Shown piece by piece: positions 39-10,467 of a DNA stretch of 12,653 nucleotides. How positions within the stretch are numbered: position 1 is the first letter of the stretch; each line of letters opens with the position of its first letter. Under the pieces are notes generated by a model. The model did no database searches. It was given only the letters and a program-made list of their open reading frames with translations, and was not told the origin of the DNA. The stretch is from the NCBI GenBank assembly GCA_015494005.1, contig WGCB01000155.1:1-12653 (forward strand), read 5' to 3'. Made by a program: the position numbers and the translations under genes. The stretch comes from Caldilineaceae bacterium. GTDB lineage: Bacteria; Chloroflexota; Anaerolineae; Caldilineales; Caldilineaceae.

Positions 39-44
39 CTCCTT
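39..44 (-). promoter_or_regulatory. Shine-Dalgarno overlapping the cpaF stop codon
   Basis: AAGGAG on the minus strand shares two bases with the TAA stop of cpaF and lies six bases upstream of the ATG at 32-30. The overlap suggests ribosomes finishing cpaF can re-initiate on the next cistron. Confidence 0.65.
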
Positions 45-1398
45 ACCAGCGCTTCTTCTTGGGGGGGGCCGTGGGCATAAAAAGGTCCGGCGACACCTGG
101 AATCCAGCGGCCTCGATCTTCTCGATGAACTTGGGCCGGATGCCGGTGGCGCTGAAATAGCCCTGGACCCGGCCGTCCTTCATGCCCCGGCGCACGAAGT
201 GGAAGATGTCCTGCATGACGATCACATCCCCCTCCATGCCCTGGACCTCGGCGATCTGCACCACCTTGCGGCTGCCGTCGGGCATGCGCTCCAGCTGGAT
301 GACCAGGTCGAAGGCCGAGGCGATCTGCTCCCGGATGGCCCGGAGAGGCAGCTCCATGCCCGCCATGAGCACCATGGTCTCCACCCGGCGCAGGGCGTCC
401 CGGGGGCCGTTGGCGTGGACCGTGGTCAGGGAGCCCTCGTGGCCGGTGTTCATGGCCTGGAGCATGTCCAGGGCCTCGCCGCCCCGCACCTCGCCCACCA
501 CGATGCGGTCCGGCCGCATGCGCAGGGCGTTGATCACCAGCTGGCGGATGGTGATCTGGCCCTTGCCCTCCACGTTGGGGGGGCGGGCCTCCAGGGGGAT
601 GACGTGGCGCTGTTGCAGGCGCAGCTCCGCCGCGTCCTCGATGGTGATGATGCGCTCCCGGTCCGGGATGAAGGAAGAGAGCACGTTCAGCAGGGTGGTC
701 TTGCCGGTGGAGGTGCCGCCGGAGACCAGGATGTTCAGCTTGGCCAGGACCGCCACCCGCAGGAAGTCGATCATCTCCTGGGAGATGGTGCCGCTGGCCA
801 CCAGGTCCTCCACGGACATGATGTGGCGGACGAACTTGCGGATGCTGATGCAGGGGCCCACCAGGGCCAGGGGCGGGATGACCACGTTGACTCGGGAGCC
901 GTCGGGCAGGCGGGCGTCCACCATGGGGCTGCTGCCGTCCACCCGGCGGCCCAGGGGCGCCACGATGCGGTCGATGATGCGCAGGACCTCCGCCTCGTCC
1001 TGGAAGCGGACCTCCGCCTCCTCCAGGATGCCGTTGCGCTCGATGAAGACCTGGTCTGGCCCGTTCACCAGGATCTCGCTGATGCTGTTGTCCTGCAGCA
1101 GGGGCTCCAGGGGGCCCAGCCCCAGGAGGTCCGCCACGATCTGTTCGAACATTTCCGTTCGTTCACTGCGGCTCAGGGGCAGGCCCGTCTCGGCCAGCAC
1201 CTCCTGGAAGATGCGTTCCAGGGAGCGGCGCACATCGCTGTCGTTGGTGATATTGGCGCCGGGGTTCAGCTGGGCCAGCAGACGGCGCTGCACCTTCTCT
1301 CGGATGGTCAGGTAGGCATCGTTGGGGCGGCTGCCGTTCCCGGCCTGGCCGCTCCGGCCTACCGTGGTTCCAGCCCGGTTATTGCGGAAGTTCAACAT
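43..1398 (-). CDS. cpaF: Tad pilus assembly ATPase CpaF/TadA
   Basis: 451 residues, the usual size for the TadA/CpaF branch of the type II/IV secretion ATPases. This hexameric cytoplasmic motor hydrolyses ATP to drive Flp pilus assembly through TadB/TadC. All hallmark motifs are visible: Walker A GGTSTGKT (227-234), Asp box ITIEDAAEL (251-259), Walker B RIVVGEVRGGEAL (298-310) and His box TGHEGSLTTVHAN (318-330). The N-terminal domain contains LLGLGPLEPLLQD (91-103) and SEILVNGPDQVFIERNG (107-123), typical of the family. The first 30 residues are low-complexity and the C-terminus ends in KKKRW. The ATG at 1398 follows an AGAGGA Shine-Dalgarno. It is the last complete cistron here and lies 105 bases after the propeller gene, separated from it by a heptamer repeat. 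Identity is certain from the motifs; the role in pilus assembly follows from the neighbours. Confidence 0.96.
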   Translation of the reverse strand: MLNFRNNRAGTTVGRSGQAGNGSRPNDAYLTIREKVQRRLLAQLNPGANITNDSDVRRSLERIFQEVLAETGLPLSRSERTEMFEQIVADLLGLGPLEPLLQDNSISEILVNGPDQVFIERNGILEEAEVRFQDEAEVLRIIDRIVAPLGRRVDGSSPMVDARLPDGSRVNVVIPPLALVGPCISIRKFVRHIMSVEDLVASGTISQEMIDFLRVAVLAKLNILVSGGTSTGKTTLLNVLSSFIPDRERIITIEDAAELRLQQRHVIPLEARPPNVEGKGQITIRQLVINALRMRPDRIVVGEVRGGEALDMLQAMNTGHEGSLTTVHANGPRDALRRVETMVLMAGMELPLRAIREQIASAFDLVIQLERMPDGSRKVVQIAEVQGMEGDVIVMQDIFHFVRRGMKDGRVQGYFSATGIRPKFIEKIEAAGFQVSPDLFMPTAPPKKKRW

Positions 1399-1449
1399 GC
1401 TTGGTCCTCTCGTTCGGTGCTCCAGTGACGGCTACTGCGGTCGTCGGCC

Positions 1450-1498
1450 AACTCCCAACTCCCAACTTCCAACTCCCAACTTCCCAGTTCCTCGCTCC
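1450..1498 (-). repeat. Heptanucleotide tandem repeat between the propeller gene and cpaF
   Basis: Five consecutive heptamers run from 1450 to 1484 on the plus strand: AACTCCC, AACTCCC, AACTTCC, AACTCCC, AACTTCC. Two degenerate units continue the period of seven to 1498. On the transcribed strand this reads as repeated GGGAGTT/GGAAGTT starting just after the stop of the upstream gene and ending about 50 bases before the cpaF ATG. It is untranslated and resembles the short heptamer repeats (STRR) known from cyanobacteria. Confidence 0.85.
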
Positions 1499-1503
1499 CA
1501 GCC

Positions 1504-3351
1504 TCACCGCACCCAGATGGGATCGTACTCGTCCCAGGGCACGTTGCTGATGTTGCGGACATTGCGGCCATCCGCGTCCATGACGTAGATCTGCATCACT
1601 CCGTCCCGGTTGGACCAGAAGACGATCCGGCTGCTGTCCGGCGACCAGGAGGGGTGCTTGTCCCACTCCCAGGTGTTCCGGGTCAGGGCTCGGGCGTTGG
1701 TGCCGTCCACAGAGATGACCCAGATGTCGTCGCCGCCCAGTTCCTGGCTCACGAAGGCGATGCGGGAGCCGTCCGGCGACCAGGCCGGGTCGTAGCTCAT
1801 GCCGGTCAAGGCGGTCAGCTCCTTGGGCGGCAGGGGCCCGTAGGTGGGATGGGGCGGCCGGTCGATGTAGATCTGGGGGATCTTGCCCCCGGCGGTCTCC
1901 CGCTCCTGGACGAAGGCCCGGTAGCGGCCATCCGGGGAGAATTGGGCCTGGACGACCAGCTCCTCGTACTGGCGGCGCAGGTCCCGGTTGTCGCCCAGGT
2001 ACTGCCGGTTGCTGCCGTCCGGATCCATGACCCAGAAGCCGGGTTGATCCTCGTTGTTGGAGCGGAAAACGATGCGGTTGTGGTAGGCCGCCAGAGGCCG
2101 GGGCGTGGGCGGCACCGGGATGGGCGTGGGCGTGATGGTGGGTGTGGCCGTGGGTGTGGGCGTGGGCGTCAGGGACGGCAGGATCTGGGCGATGCGCCCT
2201 TCGGCCAGGGCCGTGTCGCTCACCGGCAGGGCCGCGGCCTTGCGGTACTGCTCGTAGGCGAAGTAGACATCCCCGGAGTCCCGGTGCTGGTCCCCGCTGC
2301 GCACGTAGGCGTCGTAGAGGAGCTCCGCCAGGATGCCGCCCAGGTAGTCGGGCCGCTGATCGTAGACCCCGCGCAGGCGCAGGACCGCGTCGTCCCAGCG
2401 GGCCGCATCGTACCACTCCTTGCCGTCCAGGTAGAGGGTGGCCAGCCGGTGCTCCAGGATGGCCTGGTCGTTGGCTGGCTCCAGGCTCAGGGCCTTCTGG
2501 AAGTAGTCCAGGGCCAGGGGCATCTGCTCCGGCGCCGGCGGATCCTGTTCCAGGATCTGCCGGCCCAGCTTCAGGTAGAGGTCGAAGAGGCGTTCCCGGA
2601 CGGTGTCGCTTTTGTAGTGGATGCTGATCTCCTGGATCTGCTGGTAGGTGTCCAGGGCCTTCGCGTCCAGGTTGAGCTTGCGGTAGGTCTCGGCCAGGGC
2701 GAAGAGCTCGTCCAGCTGCTGCCGGTTCTGGATGGCCACGATGCGGTCGCTCACGTCCCGGTAGCCCGGGGCCTGGACCAGGATGTCGTTGTAGGCCTCC
2801 AGGGCAGCCTGGTATTCCCCGGCTTCCTCCAGGGCCACAGCCTTCCGGTAGGCGGTCAGGAGGGCCCGCTGCTCAATCACCTGGTTCAGCCCGGCCAGGG
2901 CTTCCCCCTCCTCCGGCTTCACCGAGAGCACCTGGCGGAAGTTGGCCTCGGCCTGGTCCAGGTTGCCCGCCTCCAGGAAGGTGTAGCCCTCGGCCAGGAT
3001 CTGCTTCAGCTGCTTCTCCTGCCGGGCCTCCGCGATGACGGGCATGACGTAGCGGCTGGCCAGAACGAAGCCTTGGAAGAGGAGCACGGCCACCACCACG
3101 ACCACCGCGCTGCGGAAGAGCAGGGGCTGCCAGGGGTAGGCCCAGCGCTTGGCCTTGATCTCCGTCTGGGCCTCCAGGCCGGCCTTGAAGAGGGCCATTT
3201 CCAGGGCGTCCTCCACAGTGGGGTTGCCCGGGTGCTGGCGGGCCAGCTCCTGGAAGCAGCGGATGGCCTCCTGCCATTCGCCCGCCTGCAGGTGGGCCAT
3301 GCCTTCGGTGTAGAGAGGCGTCCCGGTGATGGGGATCAGATTGCTGGACAT
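1504..3351 (-). CDS. TPR / transmembrane / TPR / Thr-Pro linker / PD40 beta-propeller protein of the Tad locus
   Basis: 615 residues from the ATG at 3351, which follows GGAGGA by seven bases. An in-frame start ten codons upstream is less well placed. Order of parts: a TPR-like helical segment (about 12-60); one transmembrane helix (about 81-102, SAVVVVVAVLLFQGFVLASR); several TPR-like repeats (about 115-385, e.g. EAGNLDQAEANFRQVL and EAGEYQAALEAYNDIL); a Thr-Pro linker (395-417); and TolB-type PD40 strands (about 425-615) marked by FSPDGRYRAF, WSPDGSRIAF and WSPDSSRIVF. Basic residues before the helix suggest an N-in topology, placing the large TPR array and propeller outside the cell. About four PD40 units are seen, fewer than a usual closed propeller. 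It sits between tadC and cpaF, 107 bases after tadC. Tad loci often encode a TPR protein (TadD); this may take that place with an added binding domain. That role is inferred, not shown. Confidence 0.85.
   Translation of the reverse strand: MSSNLIPITGTPLYTEGMAHLQAGEWQEAIRCFQELARQHPGNPTVEDALEMALFKAGLEAQTEIKAKRWAYPWQPLLFRSAVVVVVAVLLFQGFVLASRYVMPVIAEARQEKQLKQILAEGYTFLEAGNLDQAEANFRQVLSVKPEEGEALAGLNQVIEQRALLTAYRKAVALEEAGEYQAALEAYNDILVQAPGYRDVSDRIVAIQNRQQLDELFALAETYRKLNLDAKALDTYQQIQEISIHYKSDTVRERLFDLYLKLGRQILEQDPPAPEQMPLALDYFQKALSLEPANDQAILEHRLATLYLDGKEWYDAARWDDAVLRLRGVYDQRPDYLGGILAELLYDAYVRSGDQHRDSGDVYFAYEQYRKAAALPVSDTALAEGRIAQILPSLTPTPTPTATPTITPTPIPVPPTPRPLAAYHNRIVFRSNNEDQPGFWVMDPDGSNRQYLGDNRDLRRQYEELVVQAQFSPDGRYRAFVQERETAGGKIPQIYIDRPPHPTYGPLPPKELTALTGMSYDPAWSPDGSRIAFVSQELGGDDIWVISVDGTNARALTRNTWEWDKHPSWSPDSSRIVFWSNRDGVMQIYVMDADGRNVRNISNVPWDEYDPIWVR
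2101..2169 (-). repeat. Low-complexity coding repeat for a Thr-Pro linker
   Basis: Residues 395-417 of the propeller protein are an alternating Thr-Pro stretch (TPTPTPTATPTITPTP and following). It is encoded by repeated ACGCCC/ACACCC codons that give a GT-rich low-complexity tract on the plus strand. Such tracts can vary in length by slippage. Functionally it is an extended spacer between the TPR array and the propeller. Confidence 0.85.
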
Positions 3352-3458
3352 GAAACGTTCCTCCAGAGGCGCTGTGGGCAAGGGCCGGCGCCACGTTGTG
3401 GGTTCAAGTTCGGGTCGGGCCGCTCAAGGTGGGGCGGACCGGCTCGAGGCAGGTCGCC

Positions 3459-4424
3459 TCAGTTGCCTGAGGTCAGGCGCTCCATCCAGAACAGGAAAGT
3501 GGGAATGGACGGGCCCAGGATGACGATGAACAGGGCCGGGAAGATCAGGAAGACCAGAGGGAAGACCATCTTCACGCTGGCCTGCCGGGCCTGCTCCTCC
3601 GCCATCTGGCGGCGCTTGGTGCGCATCTCCGCAGCCTGGGAGTGGAGCACCTGGGCGATGCTCACGCCCAGCTGGTTGGACTGGATGAGCACGCTCACGA
3701 AGGTGCGCAGCTCCTCCACGCCAGACCGTTCGGCCATGCGCTGCAGGGCCACGTCCCGGGGGGTGCCCACCCGCATCTCCGCGGCCACCCGGCGGAAGGC
3801 CTCGGTGAGGGGGTTCTGCCACTTCTGCCCCACCTGGGCCAGCGCGGACTCAAAGGCCAGGCCGGCCTCCACGCTGATGGTCAGCATGTCCAGGGCGTCG
3901 GGCAGGGCTCGCAGGATGGCCTGGCGACGTCGCTTGGCCTTGGCCCGCAGCCAGAAGAGGGGCAGGAAGAAGCCCACGCCGGCGAAGAGCAGCCCGTTGC
4001 GCAGGGCCATCTGGAAGGAGAGGCTGCGGCCGAAGTAGAGCACCCCGCCCACCCCCAGGATCAGGGCCGTGAGCAGGCGCAGGCCGAAGAAATCCAGGAC
4101 CGTCAGGCCCAGGGGCTCCCCAGCCTGGAGGAGCATCTCGTGGATCTTCTCCAGGTTGCGCTTGGGGGCGAAACCGCCCAGGATGCTCAGCAGGCGGCGC
4201 AGCAGGGGCAGCAGCACCCGCACGGCAAAGGGGCGGCTGATCTCCACCGTCTCGAAGTAGGTCTGCCGGTCCAGGTAGCTGTCCAGGCGGGACTGGACCT
4301 GGCGCACCGGGCGGGCCGGGGCGAAGGCCATCCAGATCAGGACCACGGCCAGGAACGTCAGGGCGGCAGCAGTGGCCGGGGATGTGAAGATGTCGTAGCT
4401 CGTCAACAGGGTGACCAGATCCAT
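3459..4424 (-). CDS. tadC: Tad pilus platform protein TadC (T2SS F domain)
   Basis: 321 residues, an inner-membrane platform protein that pairs with TadB and contacts the CpaF ATPase during fibre assembly. Predicted helices lie at about 17-36, 113-131, 143-160 and 286-304. The GspF-type domain covers about 172-300 and opens with LPDALDMLTISVEAGLAFESAL in two adjoining parts (174-185 and 184-195); the later VSVLIQSNQLGVSIAQVL (243-260) is the other family signature. The cytoplasmic stretch RAKAKRRRQ (160-168) precedes the domain. The ATG at 4424 follows AAGGAG by nine bases. Only 24 bases separate it from tadB upstream, so the pair is surely co-transcribed. TadC rather than TadB is assigned from order, the 'DALDMLTISVEAGL' signature and the longer N-terminal region. 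Confidence 0.92.
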   Translation of the reverse strand: MDLVTLLTSYDIFTSPATAAALTFLAVVLIWMAFAPARPVRQVQSRLDSYLDRQTYFETVEISRPFAVRVLLPLLRRLLSILGGFAPKRNLEKIHEMLLQAGEPLGLTVLDFFGLRLLTALILGVGGVLYFGRSLSFQMALRNGLLFAGVGFFLPLFWLRAKAKRRRQAILRALPDALDMLTISVEAGLAFESALAQVGQKWQNPLTEAFRRVAAEMRVGTPRDVALQRMAERSGVEELRTFVSVLIQSNQLGVSIAQVLHSQAAEMRTKRRQMAEEQARQASVKMVFPLVFLIFPALFIVILGPSIPTFLFWMERLTSGN

Positions 4425-4448: not shown

Positions 4449-5396
4449 CTAGACCTGGATGTCCACAATGCGGCGAATGACCAGGAAACCGGCAGTCTGC
4501 ATCAACAGGGCGGCCACGGGCAGCAGCCGGATCCAGCCGGGCTCGAACAGGCGGGCCATGTAGTCCGGGTTGATCATGAAGAGCAGGGCCACCAGGCCCA
4601 GGGGCAGGGCGGCCAGGATGTAGCCGGTGATGCGCTGCTGGGCCGTCAGCACCCGGATCTCCCGCTGGATGCGCAGCCGGTCCCGGACCGTCTCACCGAT
4701 GATCTCCAGGGTCTGGGCCAGGTTGCCGCCGGTCTCGTACTGGACGTTGATGGCCGTCACCACCATGTCCGCCTCGTCCGTGCCGATGCGGTCCGCCATC
4801 TGGCGCAGGGCCTGGTGGATGGGGAAACCCAGGTCCACCGTGCGCATCACCCGTTCCAGCTCCGTGGAGGCCGGGTCCCCGATCTGATCGATGACCAGCT
4901 CGATGGACTGGGTCAGGCCGTAGCCGGAGCGCAGGGCGCCCACCAGCAGGGTCAACAGCTGGGGCACCTGCTCGGTGAAGGCCTTCTGTCGCTGCTTGCG
5001 GCGATAGCGGGCATAGAAGATGGGCAGGTAGGCGGCGAAGGCCCCCAGGGCCAGCCCCACGGCCAGGTGGAAGCGGAAGGCGCCGAAGATCAGGCCCAGG
5101 GCGCCGGCCCCGATGACGATCATGGTGAACTCAGCCGCCGTCAACGGCAGATCCGCCTGGCTCAGGAGCTCCGCCTGGCTGGGGCCCAGGCCCAGGCCGG
5201 CCAACAGGCGGTTGATGCGCCGCCGGGCCGAGGGCTCCGGCTCCAGCTCGGAAAGCTGGGCGAAGGCGCTCTTGCGGCCGTACTGGTCCAGCCGCTCCTC
5301 CACCTCGTCCTGTCCGTTGGCGAAGTGCCAGATGGCGCCGAAGGTCACGACGACGCCCAGGGCAACGAGGATTCCGAAAAGTAGTGGTCCGACCAT
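4449..5396 (-). CDS. tadB: Tad pilus platform protein TadB (T2SS F domain)
   Basis: 315 residues, partner of TadC in the inner-membrane assembly platform. Predicted membrane helices lie at about 3-22, 92-108, 110-128, 256-275 and 290-308. The GspF-type domain (about 143-270) shows EQVPQLLTLLVGALRSGYGL in two overlapping parts (142-160) and the paired signature INVQYETGGNLAQTLEIIGE (216-235). The basic stretch ARYRRKQRQKAF (129-140) marks the cytoplasmic side. The ATG at 5396 is preceded by a modest AGGTAGGTG Shine-Dalgarno. The gene follows cpaE by 79 bases and precedes tadC by 24. The GSGYGL/SGYGL-type and YETGGNL motifs are typical of TadB, which gives a confident call. Confidence 0.92.
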   Translation of the reverse strand: MVGPLLFGILVALGVVVTFGAIWHFANGQDEVEERLDQYGRKSAFAQLSELEPEPSARRRINRLLAGLGLGPSQAELLSQADLPLTAAEFTMIVIGAGALGLIFGAFRFHLAVGLALGAFAAYLPIFYARYRRKQRQKAFTEQVPQLLTLLVGALRSGYGLTQSIELVIDQIGDPASTELERVMRTVDLGFPIHQALRQMADRIGTDEADMVVTAINVQYETGGNLAQTLEIIGETVRDRLRIQREIRVLTAQQRITGYILAALPLGLVALLFMINPDYMARLFEPGWIRLLPVAALLMQTAGFLVIRRIVDIQV

Positions 5397-5475: not shown

Positions 5476-6735
5476 CTAGGCGCTGGCCATGCGCAGGCGG
5501 CCGAAGAGCTGTTTGACTAGCTCCGCAGGGGAGCGGTCTGCCTCGGAGCGGACCGGGGCGGCGTAGTCCAGGCTGGGTGTGTCCTCGCTGAGCAGCTGGG
5601 CGAAGGAGCGGAAAGCCTTGCTCACTGCGCTGCGGGGGTGGCTCATCACCGCGGGCACGCCCCGGTTGACGCTGTATGTGGCCAGGGGCTGGTCGTCCGG
5701 GATGCGGAACTTGACCCGCACCCGCAGCCGGCGCTCGATGTCCCGCACCGGCACGCCGCCCCGCATGGTGGCCCGGTTCAGCACCAGCCAGACCTTGTCC
5801 TCCGGGTAGCCCCGGCTCAGGAGCTGATCCAGCATGAGCCGGGTGTTGCGCAGCCCCACCATCTCGGGCAGGACGCTCATGACGATGCGGTCGGCCCCGT
5901 CCAGGAAGGCGAAGGCCGTCTCGTCCATGGGCAGGCCCAGGTCCACGATGACCCAGGGGAACATGCGCTTCAGCTTGGCCAGCACCTGCTGCACATGGGG
6001 CAGGGAGATGGGGCTGGTCAGGTCCGCGGGGGGCGGGGCCAGGAGCACTCGCAGCCCGGAGACGTGGGTGGCCAGCACGCCGGAGATGAGTTCCTCGTCC
6101 AGATGGGTGAGGCGAGGCAGCAGGTCGGCGATGTTGGTGGTGCCGGGCAGGTTCAAGGCCACGTCCAAGGCAGGGGCGGCGTAGTCCGCATCCACCAGGA
6201 CCACCGGCTGGTTGGTGTGGCGGCGCAGGCTCAGGGAGGTGTTGATGGCCAGGGTGGTGCGGCCGGTGCCTCCCTTGGGCGCACAGAAGACCACGATGCG
6301 GCCCTCCACCGCCGGGGTGCTCTGGGTCAGAGCCGGGCGCACGGGCTGCAGGGCCAGGGCCTGCTGCACAGTGGAGGCCAGGCGATCCGGCTGCACCGGC
6401 TTGGTGACGAAGCCCCGAGCCCCGGCCAGCACCACCTGGCTGGCCTCGGCGATGGCGTTCCCCTCCACCAGGGCCAGAAGGACGGCCTCGGGCGTCCGGC
6501 GGGCCAGCTGGGTGATGAGCAGCACCGAGCTGGCTCCTCCCAGATCGTCGTCCACGATGATCAGGTGGGGCACCAGATCCCGGGCCCGGGTGACGGCCAG
6601 CTCCGGCTGGGAGACCCAGTTGAAGCGATAGTCGCCGACACGGCCATTCAGGGCGTTCTCGATCTCTTTGGGCCGCTCCGTGTTGCTCGAGACGAGGAGC
6701 ACGCGCAGGGTTTCGCCGGGTGTGTAGTTGGTCAT
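5476..6735 (-). CDS. cpaE: Tad pilus localisation ATPase CpaE/TadZ with variant P-loop
   Basis: 419 residues. CpaE/TadZ proteins are MinD/ParA-like ATPases fused to a receiver-like domain and place the pilus machine in the cell. The receiver-like domain (about 10-130) keeps a possible phospho-acceptor D62 and K112 (FVTKP) but has Ser-Ser (16-17) where receivers carry the acidic pair, so phosphorylation is doubtful. The ATPase domain (about 145-385) has the deviant Walker A APKGGTGRTT (152-161). The signature K154 is present, but the P-loop lysine is Arg159 (codon CGC). VLVDADY (179-185) and VIVDLG (262-267) give the following acidic motifs. The C-terminus AELVKQLFGRLRM (404-416) could form an amphipathic membrane-binding helix. 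The ATG at 6735 follows GGAGG by seven bases; cpaB lies 30 bases upstream. Confidence 0.92.
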   Translation of the reverse strand: MTNYTPGETLRVLLVSSNTERPKEIENALNGRVGDYRFNWVSQPELAVTRARDLVPHLIIVDDDLGGASSVLLITQLARRTPEAVLLALVEGNAIAEASQVVLAGARGFVTKPVQPDRLASTVQQALALQPVRPALTQSTPAVEGRIVVFCAPKGGTGRTTLAINTSLSLRRHTNQPVVLVDADYAAPALDVALNLPGTTNIADLLPRLTHLDEELISGVLATHVSGLRVLLAPPPADLTSPISLPHVQQVLAKLKRMFPWVIVDLGLPMDETAFAFLDGADRIVMSVLPEMVGLRNTRLMLDQLLSRGYPEDKVWLVLNRATMRGGVPVRDIERRLRVRVKFRIPDDQPLATYSVNRGVPAVMSHPRSAVSKAFRSFAQLLSEDTPSLDYAAPVRSEADRSPAELVKQLFGRLRMASA

Positions 6736-6765: not shown

Positions 6766-7584
6766 CTAGCGACCCACCTCGACGGGGATCTGGTAGCGGT
6801 TGATCATGTAGTCCACGTCCACCGGCGCCGTCTCGAAGGGCTGGTCCGCGCCCGGGGCCCGCAGGACGATGTCCGGGATGGCTTCCGAGTCCAGGGCGAA
6901 CTTCAGCACCAGGGCATCCTGGGGGCTGACGGTGAGGAGGATGGCCTCGGCCCGGCTCTTGTCCGAGCCGCCGGTGGGGGTCTTGCCAGCCACCACCGCG
7001 GCCACCGTGACGTTCTGCAGCGCGTTGAAGGTGGCCAGCTCTTCCTCGTTCATGGTGCCGGCGCTGCCTGTCTCACCGCCGCCGGCCAGCTGGGTCACCC
7101 GTCCCGTGGGCACCTCCAGGCTGAAGAGCAGATCCACCTGGTCGCCGGGCTTGAGGATGCCCACCTGGCTCATGAGATCCTTGGCGGGGAAGGCCATGAG
7201 GACCTCGTCCTCGGCCACCACCAGGGCCATGCGGCCATCCTCGGAGGTGACGTTGGGGTCCACCAGGCGCTGGGCCAGGATGATCTCCCCGGGGTAGAGG
7301 TCCACCAGGGTGACCATGCCCACTGCGTCGTCCAGCTGGCGGACAGCCCCCTCGGGGACGGTCTCCACGGGCAGGTTGCGGACCTCCAGGTCCTCACTGG
7401 TGAGGGGACTGCGGATGTCGATGGCCCGGGTGGCCACCACCACAGAGACCTCTGGCCCGGAGAGGACGGATCCGCTTCCCTGGGCTTGGGTGGCATTGGA
7501 CAGGGTGGTGAAGGCGACGAAACCTGCCATAACGGCTACCACCAGACCGGTGAACAGCCATAGAAATCCTCGTAGACGGCCCAT
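6766..7584 (-). CDS. cpaB: Tad pilus assembly protein CpaB/RcpC (SAF domain)
   Basis: 272 residues. An N-terminal membrane helix (about 8-28) follows the basic MGRLRG, so the protein is an anchored or secreted extracytoplasmic component. The SAF domain (about 46-106) has the family pattern: ATRAIDIRSPLTSEDL (51-66), the pair NLPVETVPEGAV (70-81) and LYPGEIILAQRL (96-107). The RcpC-type domain (about 118-245) contains PAKDLMSQVGILKPGDQVDL (133-152). In diderms CpaB/RcpC works with the secretin and periplasm. No secretin gene is present here, so it may act in the cell wall space. The ATG at 7584 follows an excellent GGAGGA by six bases. It lies between the VWA gene and cpaE, the usual neighbourhood. 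Confidence 0.92.
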   Translation of the reverse strand: MGRLRGFLWLFTGLVVAVMAGFVAFTTLSNATQAQGSGSVLSGPEVSVVVATRAIDIRSPLTSEDLEVRNLPVETVPEGAVRQLDDAVGMVTLVDLYPGEIILAQRLVDPNVTSEDGRMALVVAEDEVLMAFPAKDLMSQVGILKPGDQVDLLFSLEVPTGRVTQLAGGGETGSAGTMNEEELATFNALQNVTVAAVVAGKTPTGGSDKSRAEAILLTVSPQDALVLKFALDSEAIPDIVLRAPGADQPFETAPVDVDYMINRYQIPVEVGR

Positions 7585-7701: not shown

Positions 7702-8859
7702 TCACTCGATGAGCCGCAGGCGAATCTGGTCGAAGATGCTCTGGTAGATGGCGTCCAGGTCCGCGGAGGTGGGGGCGTAGTAGGACGTGCCGCCGGTGAT
7801 GTCCGCGATGTCCTGCATGAGCCCCTGGTCCGCCTTGTCTCCCAGGGCGATGGTGTAGATGACGATGTGGTCCTGGGCGGCCAGGGTGGCCTGGTTGCGG
7901 GCCGCGTCCTTGGCCACCGGGCAATAGTCCGGGCAGCCACCGCAGGAGTCCGCGGAGGTGAGCCCCTTGTTGGGCAGCCCATCCGTCAGGAAGACGATGA
8001 TGGGGATGGCCTCCGGTCGGCGGCGGCTTCCGGTCAGCTCTTCCCGGCCTCGCAGAAGCCCACCCGCTGCGTTGGTGCAGCCGGCCGCGTTCAGGGCGTC
8101 GATGGCCGATTTGACCTGGTTGAAGTTCTCCGTCAGCCCCTGGTCCAAGGTGTAGTCGTGGGAGTAGGAGGCCAGGGCGATGTGGGCCAGGTTGGGGTTG
8201 TTCAGGTCCACGAAGGTTTTGGCCGCGTTCTTGGCATCGGTGATGGGCTGGGGTGGCAGATACCAGGAGCCGCCGCAGCTTTCGCAGGTGCCCTGGGTGA
8301 CGTAGCCGGCGCAGGGCTCCAGGTTGGGGCCCAGGCTGCAGGAGTCGTCGTCCATGCTGCCCGAGCGGTCCATGACCAGGACGATGTCCACTGGGGAGAA
8401 ACCGCCTCCGGCCTCGCCGCTGGCGCTCATGGTGTCCACGCCCACCAGGCCGGCGATGAAGGTGGGCACCGTGACCCTGGCCGTCACTCGCACACCGATG
8501 GAATCTGCGGGCACAAAGCCGTCGCCCACCGGCTGCTCCGAGGGCAGGTAGACCGCCTCGAAGGAGTCTGCCTCGTTCTGGCCCACGGTGTACTCCTGGA
8601 TGGCGCTGAACACCTCTGCGTCCGTGCCCCCGTCGATGAGGACCCAGGCCCCGGCCAGGGCGCCGGCGTCCGCGGCGTTCTGCATCTTGCGCCGCTCGGA
8701 GTAGGCCATGCCCACGTCCACGGAGAGGGCCACCAGGGCCAGCAGGGCGATCAAGGTGACGGCCGTGGTGATGAGGGCGTCGCCCCGATCGCTCTTGATG
8801 CGGTTCACAATGGTGCGTGGCAGTTCGGTGATGGTCTTCATGGTTGGCTCGTTTCGCAT
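7702..8859 (-). CDS. tadG: TadG-type VWA-domain protein of the pilus locus
   Basis: 385 residues. The N-terminus is of the TadE/TadG pilin-like type: RGDALITTAVTLIALLALVA (25-44) is a hydrophobic helix, followed by ERRKMQNAADAGALAGA (55-71), the hallmark of the Tad/Flp N-terminal family. A von Willebrand A domain (about 157-380) begins VDIVLVMDRSGSMD (157-170). Its metal site looks complete: D164, S166, S168, T262 and D293. Such proteins are thought to be minor, possibly tip or adhesive, components of Tad pili. Two insertions in the VWA fold bring seven cysteines (174, 183, 192, 195, 306, 309, 313), and C261 is next to the metal-site Thr. The ATG at 8859 is chosen because AGGAGA lies seven bases upstream; the next Met (8841) has a weak site. 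Confidence 0.9.
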   Translation of the reverse strand: MRNEPTMKTITELPRTIVNRIKSDRGDALITTAVTLIALLALVALSVDVGMAYSERRKMQNAADAGALAGAWVLIDGGTDAEVFSAIQEYTVGQNEADSFEAVYLPSEQPVGDGFVPADSIGVRVTARVTVPTFIAGLVGVDTMSASGEAGGGFSPVDIVLVMDRSGSMDDDSCSLGPNLEPCAGYVTQGTCESCGGSWYLPPQPITDAKNAAKTFVDLNNPNLAHIALASYSHDYTLDQGLTENFNQVKSAIDALNAAGCTNAAGGLLRGREELTGSRRRPEAIPIIVFLTDGLPNKGLTSADSCGGCPDYCPVAKDAARNQATLAAQDHIVIYTIALGDKADQGLMQDIADITGGTSYYAPTSADLDAIYQSIFDQIRLRLIE

Positions 8860-8929: not shown

Positions 8930-9316
8930 TCATTCGATGCGCATGGTGGTGTTGGCCCGCAGTTGGATGTTCGGGTTGCCGCCCAGGGCCTCGATCACCG
9001 GGCCGGTGAGGAGGGTCTCCTGGTAGGTCACCTCCACCTGGATGGTGTTGCCGCCGGGGTAGGTGACGGAGACGCTCAGGGAGGCTGGATCCAGCCCCGT
9101 GGTGAGCTCTCGGGTGCGGGCCTCGATTCCGGCCACGTCCGTGGGGTGGATGACCCCGTAGCGGGCGCCTTCCCGGGCGGCGTTTCCGATGGTGTCGTAG
9201 GAGAAGATGACAATGGCGAAGTCGGCAATCCCCAGGATAAGCAACAAGAGCACGGGCAAAACCAGCGCGTACTCGACTAGATCCTGTCCTTTTTCCCTGC
9301 GTAATTGCCGGAGCAT
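8930..9316 (-). CDS. tadE: TadE-type pseudopilin with Flp-like processing site
   Basis: 128 residues from the ATG at 9316, preceded by AGGAG eight bases away; a longer open frame upstream lacks this support. It starts MLRQLRREKG and continues QDLVEYALVLP into a hydrophobic helix (about 14-37). Gly10 followed by Glu at +5 and Tyr at +6 is exactly the Flp/TadV cleavage pattern, so the protein is probably processed like a pilin. GNAAREGARYGV (44-55) is the conserved TadE motif. The rest (about 75-128) is a small beta-rich domain. TadE/TadF pseudopilins are minor components needed for pilus formation. It lies 31 bases after the second TadE-type gene and 70 before tadG. The two TadE-type proteins share the NAAREGARY segment and are paralogues. 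Confidence 0.9.
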   Translation of the reverse strand: MLRQLRREKGQDLVEYALVLPVLLLLILGIADFAIVIFSYDTIGNAAREGARYGVIHPTDVAGIEARTRELTTGLDPASLSVSVTYPGGNTIQVEVTYQETLLTGPVIEALGGNPNIQLRANTTMRIE

Positions 9317-9347
9317 CTTTCCTTCTCCTGTTGGCAGCCGTGTCCTC

Positions 9348-9731
9348 TCAGCGGACTCGGAATGTGGCTGAGACCTGCAAGGGCAGGTTGTCGAATCCAA
9401 TGATTCCCCCTAAAATGGTGGGGAAGTTCATCTGGACAGTCACTGTCACTGGGTTGCCAGGCCCCTGGTTGTCCACGTTGATGACGGCGGTGGACAGATC
9501 CACGTTGCTGTCTGCGGCTTCCTGGCGCACAATGTTGGCGATGGTGCTCACGTCATCTGGCTGATCCACGGCGTAACGGGCGCCTTCCCGGGCGGCGTTG
9601 ATCATGGTGATGTAGGTGTGGTAGGCCCTGCCGAAGTCCACAACGCCGATGAGGAGCGAAAACAGGAGGGGGATGAGCAAGGCCACCTCGATGAGGTTGG
9701 AGCCCTTCTCCTCACGGATTCTGGCGTTCAT
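9348..9731 (-). CDS. tadE: TadE-type pseudopilin, second paralogue
   Basis: 127 residues from the ATG at 9731, with GAGGAG nine bases upstream. The N-terminus MNARIREEKG is followed by SNLIEVALLIP and a hydrophobic helix (about 14-37). Gly10 and Glu at +5 match prepilin processing, but the +6 residue is Val rather than Tyr. INAAREGARYAV (44-55) is the TadE signature shared with the neighbouring paralogue, and the C-terminus FPTILGGIIGFDNLPLQVSA (103-122) is of the common TadE type. It is probably a minor pseudopilin or TadF equivalent. It is separated from the proximal pilin by 177 bases that carry a strong hairpin, and overlaps nothing. Confidence 0.88.
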   Translation of the reverse strand: MNARIREEKGSNLIEVALLIPLLFSLLIGVVDFGRAYHTYITMINAAREGARYAVDQPDDVSTIANIVRQEAADSNVDLSTAVINVDNQGPGNPVTVTVQMNFPTILGGIIGFDNLPLQVSATFRVR

Positions 9732-9842
9732 GTTCCGTTTCTCCTCGAAGCCCGTTTCGCTCTGATTCACAGATGCGTTCGGTGGCGTGCGGTGCACACG
9801 CTTGGTAAACACGGTGGGGGTAGGCACACTGGGTGCAGCAGC

Positions 9843-9884
9843 GGGCAGTGGCGGCGAGCAAGGCACAGGTCACCGCCACTGCCC
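9843..9884 (-). terminator. Strong hairpin just after the pilin genes, possible partial terminator or RNA-stabilising stem
   Basis: GGGCAGTGGCGG (9843-9854) and CCGCCACTGCCC (9873-9884) form a perfect 12-bp, GC-rich stem with an 18-base loop. It begins 25 bases downstream of the pilin stop codon at 9909 on the transcribed strand. No U-tract follows it. A site between abundant pilin and less-needed assembly genes suits an attenuator or 3'-end protector; that role is inferred. Confidence 0.6.
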
Positions 9885-9908
9885 ATAAAGCGTGCCTGAA
9901 TGGTTCGG

Positions 9909-10088
9909 CTACGGGGTGGCCAGCTGACCGGCGATGGTGTTGAAGACGGCGCTGACAGCGTTGGCCACGCCAGGCAGGGCGGCGGCCACAACCAGGACGA
10001 TGAGGACGATGAGCAGGGCGTACTCGATCAGGTCCTGGCCCTCTTCGTTGCGGGACAGCCAGTTAAGCAGGTGGGTGAGTGTGAACAT
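9909..10088 (-). CDS. flp: Flp-type major pilin, second copy
   Basis: 59 residues. Leader MFTLTHLLNWLSRNEEG ends in Gly17, and the mature part starts QDLIEYALLIVLIVLVV. Glu at +5 and Tyr at +6 after the glycine are the diagnostic Flp motif cut by a TadV/CpaA prepilin peptidase, leaving a mature pilin of about 42 residues. The body is a single hydrophobic helix followed by a short tail ending QLATP. The ATG at 10088 follows a very strong AAGGAGGAG (10105-10097) by eight bases, fitting high expression. It differs from the upstream copy only at residue 45 (Val here, Ile there). It polymerises into the fibre extruded by the Tad machine. Confidence 0.96.
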   Translation of the reverse strand: MFTLTHLLNWLSRNEEGQDLIEYALLIVLIVLVVAAALPGVANAVSAVFNTIAGQLATP

Positions 10089-10162
10089 GATGGTTGCTCC
10101 TCCTTGGAACGAAAGTGGTCTGCGATGCGTTGTTGGGATGTACAAGTTAGGCAATCACGGGT
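9909..10162 (-). repeat. Tandem duplication, copy 2 (pilin plus leader)
   Basis: This 254-base unit covers the second pilin and about 74 bases of its leader, and matches 10213-10467 at an offset of 304. The coding parts differ at seven of 180 positions. The 56 bases upstream of the ATG are identical, after which a few changes and a one-base indel appear before similarity ends at CACGGGT. Confidence 0.92.
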
Positions 10163-10212
10163 AGAACGGACGATGAGCAGATTTGCAGCCGGTCACCACG
10201 TGGGTGTTGGAG

Positions 10213-10392
10213 CTACGGGGTGGCCAGCTGGCCAGCGATGGTATTGAAGACGGCGCTGATGGCGTTGGCCACGCCAGGCAGGGCGGCGGCCACGACCAGG
10301 ACGATGAGGACGATGAGCAGGGCGTACTCGATCAGGTCCTGGCCCTCTTCGTTGCGGGACAGCCAGTTGAGCAGGTGGGTGAGTGTGAACAT
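10213..10392 (-). CDS. flp: Flp-type major pilin, first copy
   Basis: 59 residues, translated directly from the sequence: MFTLTHLLNWLSRNEEG, then QDLIEYALLIVLIVLVVAA, then ALPGVANAISAVFN, ending TIAGQLATP. Gly17 with Glu at +5 and Tyr at +6 is the Flp prepilin motif. Mature length is about 42 residues. The Shine-Dalgarno AAGGAGGAG (10409-10401) is eight bases before the ATG. This is the first gene of the locus and the nearest to the predicted promoter. Compared with the second copy, six of seven nucleotide changes are silent and the seventh gives Ile45 for Val45, so both are under selection to stay the same protein. Both can be expected to enter the same fibre. Confidence 0.96.
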   Translation of the reverse strand: MFTLTHLLNWLSRNEEGQDLIEYALLIVLIVLVVAAALPGVANAISAVFNTIAGQLATP

Positions 10393-10467
10393 GATGGTTG
10401 CTCCTCCTTGGAACGAAAGTGGTCTGCGATGCGTTGTTGGGATGTACAGGTTCAGACAATCACGGGT
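10213..10467 (-). repeat. Tandem duplication, copy 1 (pilin plus leader)
   Basis: Partner of 9909-10162. It includes the first pilin, its Shine-Dalgarno and about 75 leader bases. The two copies are separated by about 50 unrelated bases (10163-10212). Confidence 0.92.

Follow-up and report, generated by a model that had tools for sequence, protein, structure and literature searches.

A TPR stalk protein with a four-unit PD40 head, encoded between tadC and cpaF, is probably a dedicated part of the Tad machine in some Chloroflexota

The window analysed here is a stretch of 12,653 nucleotides (positions 1-12,653 of contig WGCB01000155.1) from a Caldilineaceae bacterium (GCA_015494005.1; genome 87.86% complete). 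It carries a Tad operon with the minus-strand order Flp, TadE, TadE, vWA/Tad, CpaB, CpaE, TadB, TadC, X, CpaF, as assigned with Pfam and NCBIfam (Table 1). The gene set of a Tad system (CpaF, TadB, TadC, CpaB, CpaE, TadE/G and Flp) is complete together in the window. X denotes the protein encoded between tadC and cpaF, at a distance of 107 nt from the former and 105 nt from the latter. An earlier note on this DNA had described a 615-residue gene at this place, in the same direction and inside a Tad operon, and the reading frames and the Pfam and NCBIfam matches of the neighbours confirm this description and add the minus strand, on which the note is silent. The frame of X is open and uninterrupted in the ORF scan and conserved in the alignment with relatives, which rules out gene decay or a frameshift.

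Upstream of the TadE genes, the Flp pilin region is near-duplicated (9908-10148 and 10212-10452, 97% over 241 nt), probably by a recent duplication. The vWA domain of the Tad/TadG-like protein (7702-8859) could, at a guess, be an adhesive tip part. A tandem array of period 7 (CCAACTC; GGGAGTTGG-like on the coding strand) occupies 1448-1486, in the gap that separates X from cpaF. Two sigma-70-like matches are located on the minus strand at 10947-10919 and 12127-12099 (10 and 11 of 12); the former precedes the pilin genes and is a possible promoter of the operon, the number of sites being near chance. The promoter scan of the window returned 3 sites where 1.3 (sd 1.2) were expected and the terminator scan 3 where 5.5 were expected, with none at 43-3458, and neither count is evidence. 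The same genome carries a second cpaB-cpaE-tadB-tadC-X-cpaF operon (C794:4360-6231, L048), whose X belongs to another subgroup and is 35% identical.

Table 1. Genes of the Tad operon and parts of X, with positions in the window and residue numbers of X.
Feature	Residues of X	Position	Strand	Basis
CpaF/TadA motor ATPase		43..1398	minus	T2SSE 5e-65; TIGR03819 5.1e-104, 348.1 bits, just under cut-off 373.15
X, 615 aa: TPR / membrane helix / TPR / Thr-Pro linker / PD40 head		1504..3351	minus	ATG 3351, stop 1506-1504
TadC platform protein		3459..4424	minus	T2SSF 9.2e-18; order in operon
TadB platform protein		4449..5396	minus	T2SSF 6.7e-19; order in operon
CpaE/TadZ, response-regulator and MinD-like domain		5476..6735	minus	Response_reg 6e-8; TIGR01968 9.4e-18, 64.5 bits, cut-off 212.9
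CpaB/RcpC		6766..7584	minus	TIGR03177 3.5e-29, above its cut-off
Tad/TadG-like protein with vWA domain		7702..8859	minus	Tad 1.3e-11, VWA 8.3e-15
TadE-like minor pilin, approximate start		8930..9400	minus	TadE 1.6e-14
TadE-like minor pilin, approximate start		9348..9866	minus	TadE 7.2e-15
Flp pilin		9909..10154	minus	Flp_Fap 0.0014, weak: 18.9 bits, below cut-off 32.2; near-copy upstream
N-terminal TPR-like helices, predicted cytoplasmic	12-62	3166..3318	minus	Pfam, model; side from charge bias
Membrane stretch, within predicted helix 74-127	81-99	3055..3111	minus	hydropathy, model
Predicted extracytoplasmic TPR solenoid, 12 helices	131-394	2170..2961	minus	Pfam, model
Thr/Pro linker, low pLDDT at 396-413	396-420	2092..2166	minus	sequence, model
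Four-unit PD40 head, TolB-like fold	421-615	1507..2091	minus	Pfam, model, superposition
Helix between head blade 1 and blade 2	456-468	1948..1986	minus	model
Head motif WEWDKHP, highly conserved	561-567	1651..1671	minus	alignment of relatives
C-terminal strand	608-613	1513..1530	minus	strand from model; pairing with blade 1 inferred

Pfam matches place PD40 at the C-terminus of X (E 1.9e-19) and TPR families at residues 13-43 and across the middle, with TPR_2 as the strongest (7.3e-16). Residues 81-99 form the sole hydrophobic stretch over the threshold of the hydropathy scan, and the sequence and the scan give X no N-terminal hydrophobic or lipobox segment. No signalling domain was found in X with Pfam or NCBIfam. 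The 15 residues on the N-side of the membrane stretch are more positive than the 15 on the C-side in 21/21 aligned proteins, including that of the window. This charge bias, together with the model, supports an N-in/C-out topology, in which TPR elements would lie on either side of the membrane.

The structure of X was predicted with AlphaFold2 from a 105-sequence alignment, which is composed of 88 of the 120 listed proteins, 16 loci and the window; the proteins left out include those with a double head. The model of whole X has a mean pLDDT of 91.5 and a pTM of 0.66, and the latter value would fit domains that are joined flexibly. Three helices (residues 12-62) are followed by a helix that contains the membrane stretch (74-127), twelve helices (131-394) and a beta domain (427-613), and the linker is loose, with pLDDT below 50 at 396-413. 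TPR-like helices flanking a single membrane helix, as proposed in the earlier note, are supported by Pfam, the model and the charge bias. The structure prediction, which that note had suggested as a check, reproduces the domain order, and its count of about four PD40 units agrees with the strands of the model. Among the 105 chosen rows, the stalk is nearly constant at 285-319 residues and the linker-bearing stretch ranges from 30 to 80 (33 in the window). This pattern would follow from a stalk whose length is set by the machine and a tether that is adjusted to the envelope.

The head alone folds confidently as one chain (AlphaFold2, pLDDT 97.3, pTM 0.91). By the usual propeller topology, a C-terminal strand can complete blade 1. 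In a superposition of its four blades on TolB, which has six, 177-181 residues are aligned over a target range of ~265. This suggests that about two TolB blades are skipped, and the head may be open on one side, where a further subunit, as considered in the earlier note, might close it. Seven- and eight-bladed propellers also match the head, at similar coverage and higher rmsd. In 58 of 67 non-redundant cassettes, which were selected by the WEWDKHP motif itself so that divergent cassettes are missed, the stop lies 55-57 residues past the first W of the motif. The other nine comprise eight with tails of at least 81 residues, all of them in Tad X proteins, and one at 64. A degenerate six-blade propeller is not favoured, given the constant size of the cassette and the fixed distance of the stop from the motif.

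The four-unit cassette usually forms the C-terminal end of its protein and is also present on non-Tad proteins, and a membrane-like stretch precedes the head in 23/26 of the other proteins examined. The genome of the window has five cassettes, of which two are in copies of X. The PD40 domain that the earlier note had described is real, and its cassette is not confined to Tad. Tad heads and other heads are split by one branch with a support of only 77, which suggests that heads are probably not traded freely.

Relatives of X were gathered by a whole-X search of the window's relatives, from the matches listed, and by a scan of genome contigs with the 105-row alignment, which used head-derived patterns and confirmed 510 stretches, the best 80 of which entered the set. 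The loci were thus picked by similarity to X or to its head, without Tad context, and are the best-scoring part of longer lists. This best-scoring set comprises 55 non-redundant loci in which a TPR match and a PD40 match are joined, including the window and its second copy. Two of them (L080 and L081, about 26-29% over most of the length, non-Tad) were set aside as another family, which leaves 53 loci. Outside the 53 stand L066 and the head-only loci at a contig start (L120, L127, L129, L152 and L159), in all of which cpaF is next.

The order tadC-X-cpaF is found in 42 of the 53 non-redundant loci of this best-scoring set, the window included. Seven more are cut by contig ends (at most 400 nt from the match), four of them as tadC-X and three as X-cpaF. 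Three loci (L110, L118 and L131) have tadC-X with a TadE-like match, not cpaF, as the next Tad match, and one (L063/L128, from a MAG labelled Litorilinea aerophila) has X-cpaF without tadC and an EF-G-like gene, judged by eye, upstream. No tadC was found in this MAG, in a search that had no control and shows little. The earlier note had allowed that X is a chance neighbour if its homologues occur mostly away from Tad loci, and among the loci collected here they do not; a survey of the gene between tadC and cpaF in relatives, which it had recommended, finds the position conserved in the X-bearing lineage. This fixed position, combined with the co-occurrence with cpaF in the order, rules out a chance neighbour. 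At L110, a 941-aa protein with an SBBP beta-propeller match (L110:2554-5376) follows X at the usual place of cpaF; its CBM_25 and Ig-like matches are weaker and below cut-off.

Co-occurrence was examined in 46 genomes of the window's order, with X called by profile at E 1e-90 and cpaF at E 1e-60. X is present in 19/46 and cpaF in 18/46: 17 genomes have both, 26 have neither, two have X only and one has cpaF only (Fisher p 1.6e-9, with relatedness not corrected for). In the two X-only genomes (G016 and G017), X itself reaches the first bases of its contig, and in the cpaF-only genome (G023) the gene between tadC and cpaF codes for an X-like TPR protein that carries a bacterial SH3 domain as its head. 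Among 24 class members outside the window's family, cpaF (E 1e-80) is present in 19 and full-length X in at least four, counted among the matches listed. A survey of the phylum with X at E 1e-70, in which four candidates were scored per genome, found it in at least 2/301 genomes, namely the window's own and G050, which matches in the TPR part only. The joint presence and absence of X and cpaF in the order indicates that X is inherited with the pilus motor and is thus probably a dedicated part of the Tad machine.

The class contains two kinds of Tad locus. X-type loci have the order cpaB-cpaE-tadB-tadC-X-cpaF, whereas the other loci, here called type I, have cpaE-cpaF-tadB-tadC without X. No match to the TPR part of X was found in any of 20 regions that surround other cpaF genes in the class, and the PD40 matches in two of these regions (L194 and L209) are far from cpaF. 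The genes cpaE, cpaF and tadB are consecutive, with both neighbours visible, in 10/20 type I regions. Behind tadC, the ORF in 11/12 type I loci resembles what we take to be a ComF-type phosphoribosyltransferase, often followed by one that is presumably ribosome hibernation factor-like; L204 differs from the other 11, and no TPR or PD40 protein was recognised by eye at this place in the 12 loci. In a CpaF tree of 69 non-identical rows, three of them of unclear type, 49/50 X-type CpaF proteins fall on a single branch (SH-aLRT 96) and 14/16 type I proteins on another (SH-aLRT 95), and those of L078, L203 and L207 fall outside both main branches. One genome (G051) carries both kinds. Gene order and the CpaF tree together suggest that X accompanies a cpaF that has changed its place and belongs to a Tad lineage of its own. 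The expectation that X is conserved across the Tad loci of Chloroflexota therefore stands for one lineage, in which X is fixed between tadC and cpaF, and fails for type I loci, from which it is missing.

Variants of X were observed at several loci. In L066:5772-7670 (genome G023), an SH3 domain (SH3_3, 2.1e-12) and a further C-terminal region replace PD40 in the gene between tadC and cpaF. This single case of SH3 in the place of PD40 is consistent with a head that binds the envelope and can be exchanged. The 877-aa X at L046:8842-11472 (genome G054) bears two tandem four-unit PD40 heads, each on its own Thr/Pro linker. An X-like TPR protein without a PD40 head is present in the Tad loci L073 and L078, with no cpaF match in the fetched region of L073, and L082 is truncated at a contig end. 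TPR-membrane-TPR proteins that are distantly related to the stalk, most of them with a Thr/Pro tail and lacking a PD40 match, are also found in Tad-free regions (L069-L072 and L074-L077), of which L074-L076 resemble each other by ORF lengths only. In L072, the genes beside the stalk encode a protein of Ig-like repeats, one of BNR/sortilin type and a histidine kinase with GAF and PAS domains, and the gene next to the L070 stalk is also BNR-type. As judged from these gene neighbourhoods, a membrane TPR stalk beside a propeller appears to be a theme that recurs, in L070 and L072 as separate genes.

A secretin (RcpA/CpaC), which belongs to the diderm form of Tad, was matched in none of the 46 genomes of the order, with a model that responds in 6/14 control genomes. 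A published survey reports that, of 3,780 Chloroflexota genomes, about 1,234 have Tad, with secretins absent (PMC12488501). For Litorilinea aerophila, another study reports a multilayered envelope and pilus-like structures taken for Tad pili, and lists an operon of tadA, tadB, two tadZ, tadE, tadC and flp (PMC13319060). The main texts of these two papers do not mention PD40, propeller, tetratricopeptide, TPR or TolB. Propeller, WD40 and TPR are likewise unmentioned in PMC8460266, on the Myxococcus Kil system, and in PMC12075869, as are PD40 and TolB in the former and TadD in the latter. In Caulobacter, the proposed secretin partner is a lipoprotein for which binding to peptidoglycan is predicted (PMC13170226). 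This points to the use of wall anchors by Tad machines. No description of an X-like protein was found in the titles and abstract starts of the open-licence literature.

There is strong support for X as a Tad part, probably one that is dedicated to the machine of some Chloroflexota and has not been described before. We give a probability of about 0.5 to the reading that X is a structural scaffold of a secretin-less Tad subtype in some Anaerolineae, which would span the envelope and hold or guide the pilus base. The short N-terminal TPR would lie in the cytoplasm beside TadB, TadC and CpaF, a contact suggested by gene order. One helix would cross the membrane and continue as the stalk, with the TPR solenoid in the wall zone, and a flexible Thr/Pro tether would carry the TolB-like four-blade head outside. 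The likeliest job of X would be to keep the pilus base in place within a thick layered envelope and to guide it. Several copies may stand around the platform; both an oligomeric collar and anchoring in the envelope are suggested by the architecture. X would then serve, in another way, the purpose that secretin, pilotin and wall-binding lipoproteins have in diderms, and the head would be an exchangeable distal binding part. The scaffold reading draws on the gene position, the co-occurrence with cpaF, the branch of X-type CpaF, the charge bias, the secretin search, the SH3 variant, the nearly constant stalk length and the multilayered Litorilinea envelope with its Tad pili. It is also supported by the Litorilinea-labelled MAG, in which X keeps adjoining cpaF even without tadC upstream. 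Against it count L110, L118 and L131, which have no cpaF beside X, and L073 and L078, which have no PD40 head. Type I loci have neither X nor a recognisable TPR gene, which indicates that secretin-less Tad apparently manages without X, and the presence of the cassette on other proteins indicates that the head need not act on the pilus. A more specific picture can be offered only tentatively: in a Tad lineage of Chloroflexota with layered envelopes, a collar of membrane-anchored TPR stalks, whose tethered four-blade propeller (or SH3) heads would lock the pilus base into the wall or outer layers, may replace the route of secretin, pilotin and wall anchor, and the truncated TolB-type propeller may be a general C-terminal module with which these bacteria bind the envelope.

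X might instead be a load or contact sensor, whose head would attach outside to the fibre, to a minor pilin or to a surface ligand and whose cytoplasmic TPR would signal to CpaF or to CpaE with its receiver-like domain. TPR elements on both sides of the membrane helix and the adjoining motor gene would suit this role, as would the company of the non-Tad stalks, namely Ig-like, BNR propeller-type and histidine kinase proteins at L072 and a BNR-type protein at L070. A sensor is nevertheless unlikely, since Pfam and NCBIfam find no signalling domain in X, the cytoplasmic part of the model amounts to about three helices and a 25-residue Thr/Pro linker would transmit force poorly. Rather improbable is an assembly factor that escorts or stabilises exported TadE/TadG and CpaB and stays outside the finished machine. 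Its appeal is that a TPR protein right behind tadC holds the place of TadD in classical loci. TadD is itself a five-repeat TPR lipoprotein pilotin (PMC10499894). However, no secretin to escort was found in the 46 genomes, the membrane helix of X is internal, with an N-terminal hydrophobic or lipobox segment absent, and a 195-residue head would be superfluous for an escort.

We give the least credit to a general surface-display protein whose gene came to lie in the Tad operon and is expressed along with it, and whose head would act on matrix or polysaccharide with no mechanical tie to the pilus. The C-terminal cassettes on other proteins, 23/26 of them behind a membrane-like stretch, and the five cassettes in the genome of the window, two of them in X copies, are in its favour. 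The strong position bias and the co-loss with cpaF across many genera argue against it, as does the separation of Tad heads from other heads (support only 77), so that heads are probably not traded freely. X is a concrete and conserved candidate for the part by which a pilus machine would cross an envelope in the absence of a secretin, a question that arises above all in Chloroflexota. X also sets a Tad lineage apart, in gene content as in gene order, and the Tad loci without X in the same class, with G051 carrying both kinds, provide a natural control. Beyond Tad, the four-unit C-terminal propeller cassette is common to several protein types of these bacteria.

In classical Tad loci, tadD directly follows tadC. 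X is likewise a TPR protein of a pilus locus directly after tadC; as far as sequence matches and gene order go, it would occupy the TadD position, and position and TPR agree with TadD. TadD binds the C-terminus of the secretin (PMC10499894), and MshN is named as a TadD homologue (PMC6668835). X differs from TadD, a soluble periplasmic lipoprotein, in its membrane helix at 81-99 with TPR before it, in the Thr/Pro linker, in the PD40 head and in the missing lipoprotein signal, and the secretin partner of TadD was not found in the order (46 genomes). No family named TadD is among the NCBIfam matches of X, nor among the fold matches listed. X is not filed as TadD because of the missing lipoprotein signal, the secretin not found in the order and its other topology, which set it apart from the description of TadD.

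The head resembles TolB, which has six blades and an N-terminal domain, whereas X has four units with an extra helix and is membrane-tethered. X as TolB is ruled out by the TIGR02800 score (92.8 bits against a cut-off of 343.15) and by four units in place of six blades; no Tol-Pal partner was found with Pfam among the operon genes scanned. A weak NCBIfam match to FlcA (2.8e-4, residues 79-197), which we take from the family name to be a periplasmic flagellar collar, covers the membrane helix and TPR; it scores 19.5 bits against a cut-off of 300, concerns another machine and leaves the PD40 head outside. Within Tad, CpaB/RcpC is likewise a protein of the wall zone, reported to form a dodecameric periplasmic conduit (PMC12307814), but has SAF-type domains where X has TPR. 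The operon of X has its own CpaB, so that X adds to CpaB and does not replace it. Type I loci of the same class share the core of cpaB, cpaE, cpaF, tadB and tadC with X loci and differ in the order cpaE-cpaF-tadB-tadC and in missing X. X is an accessory part of a new kind within the known Tad system.
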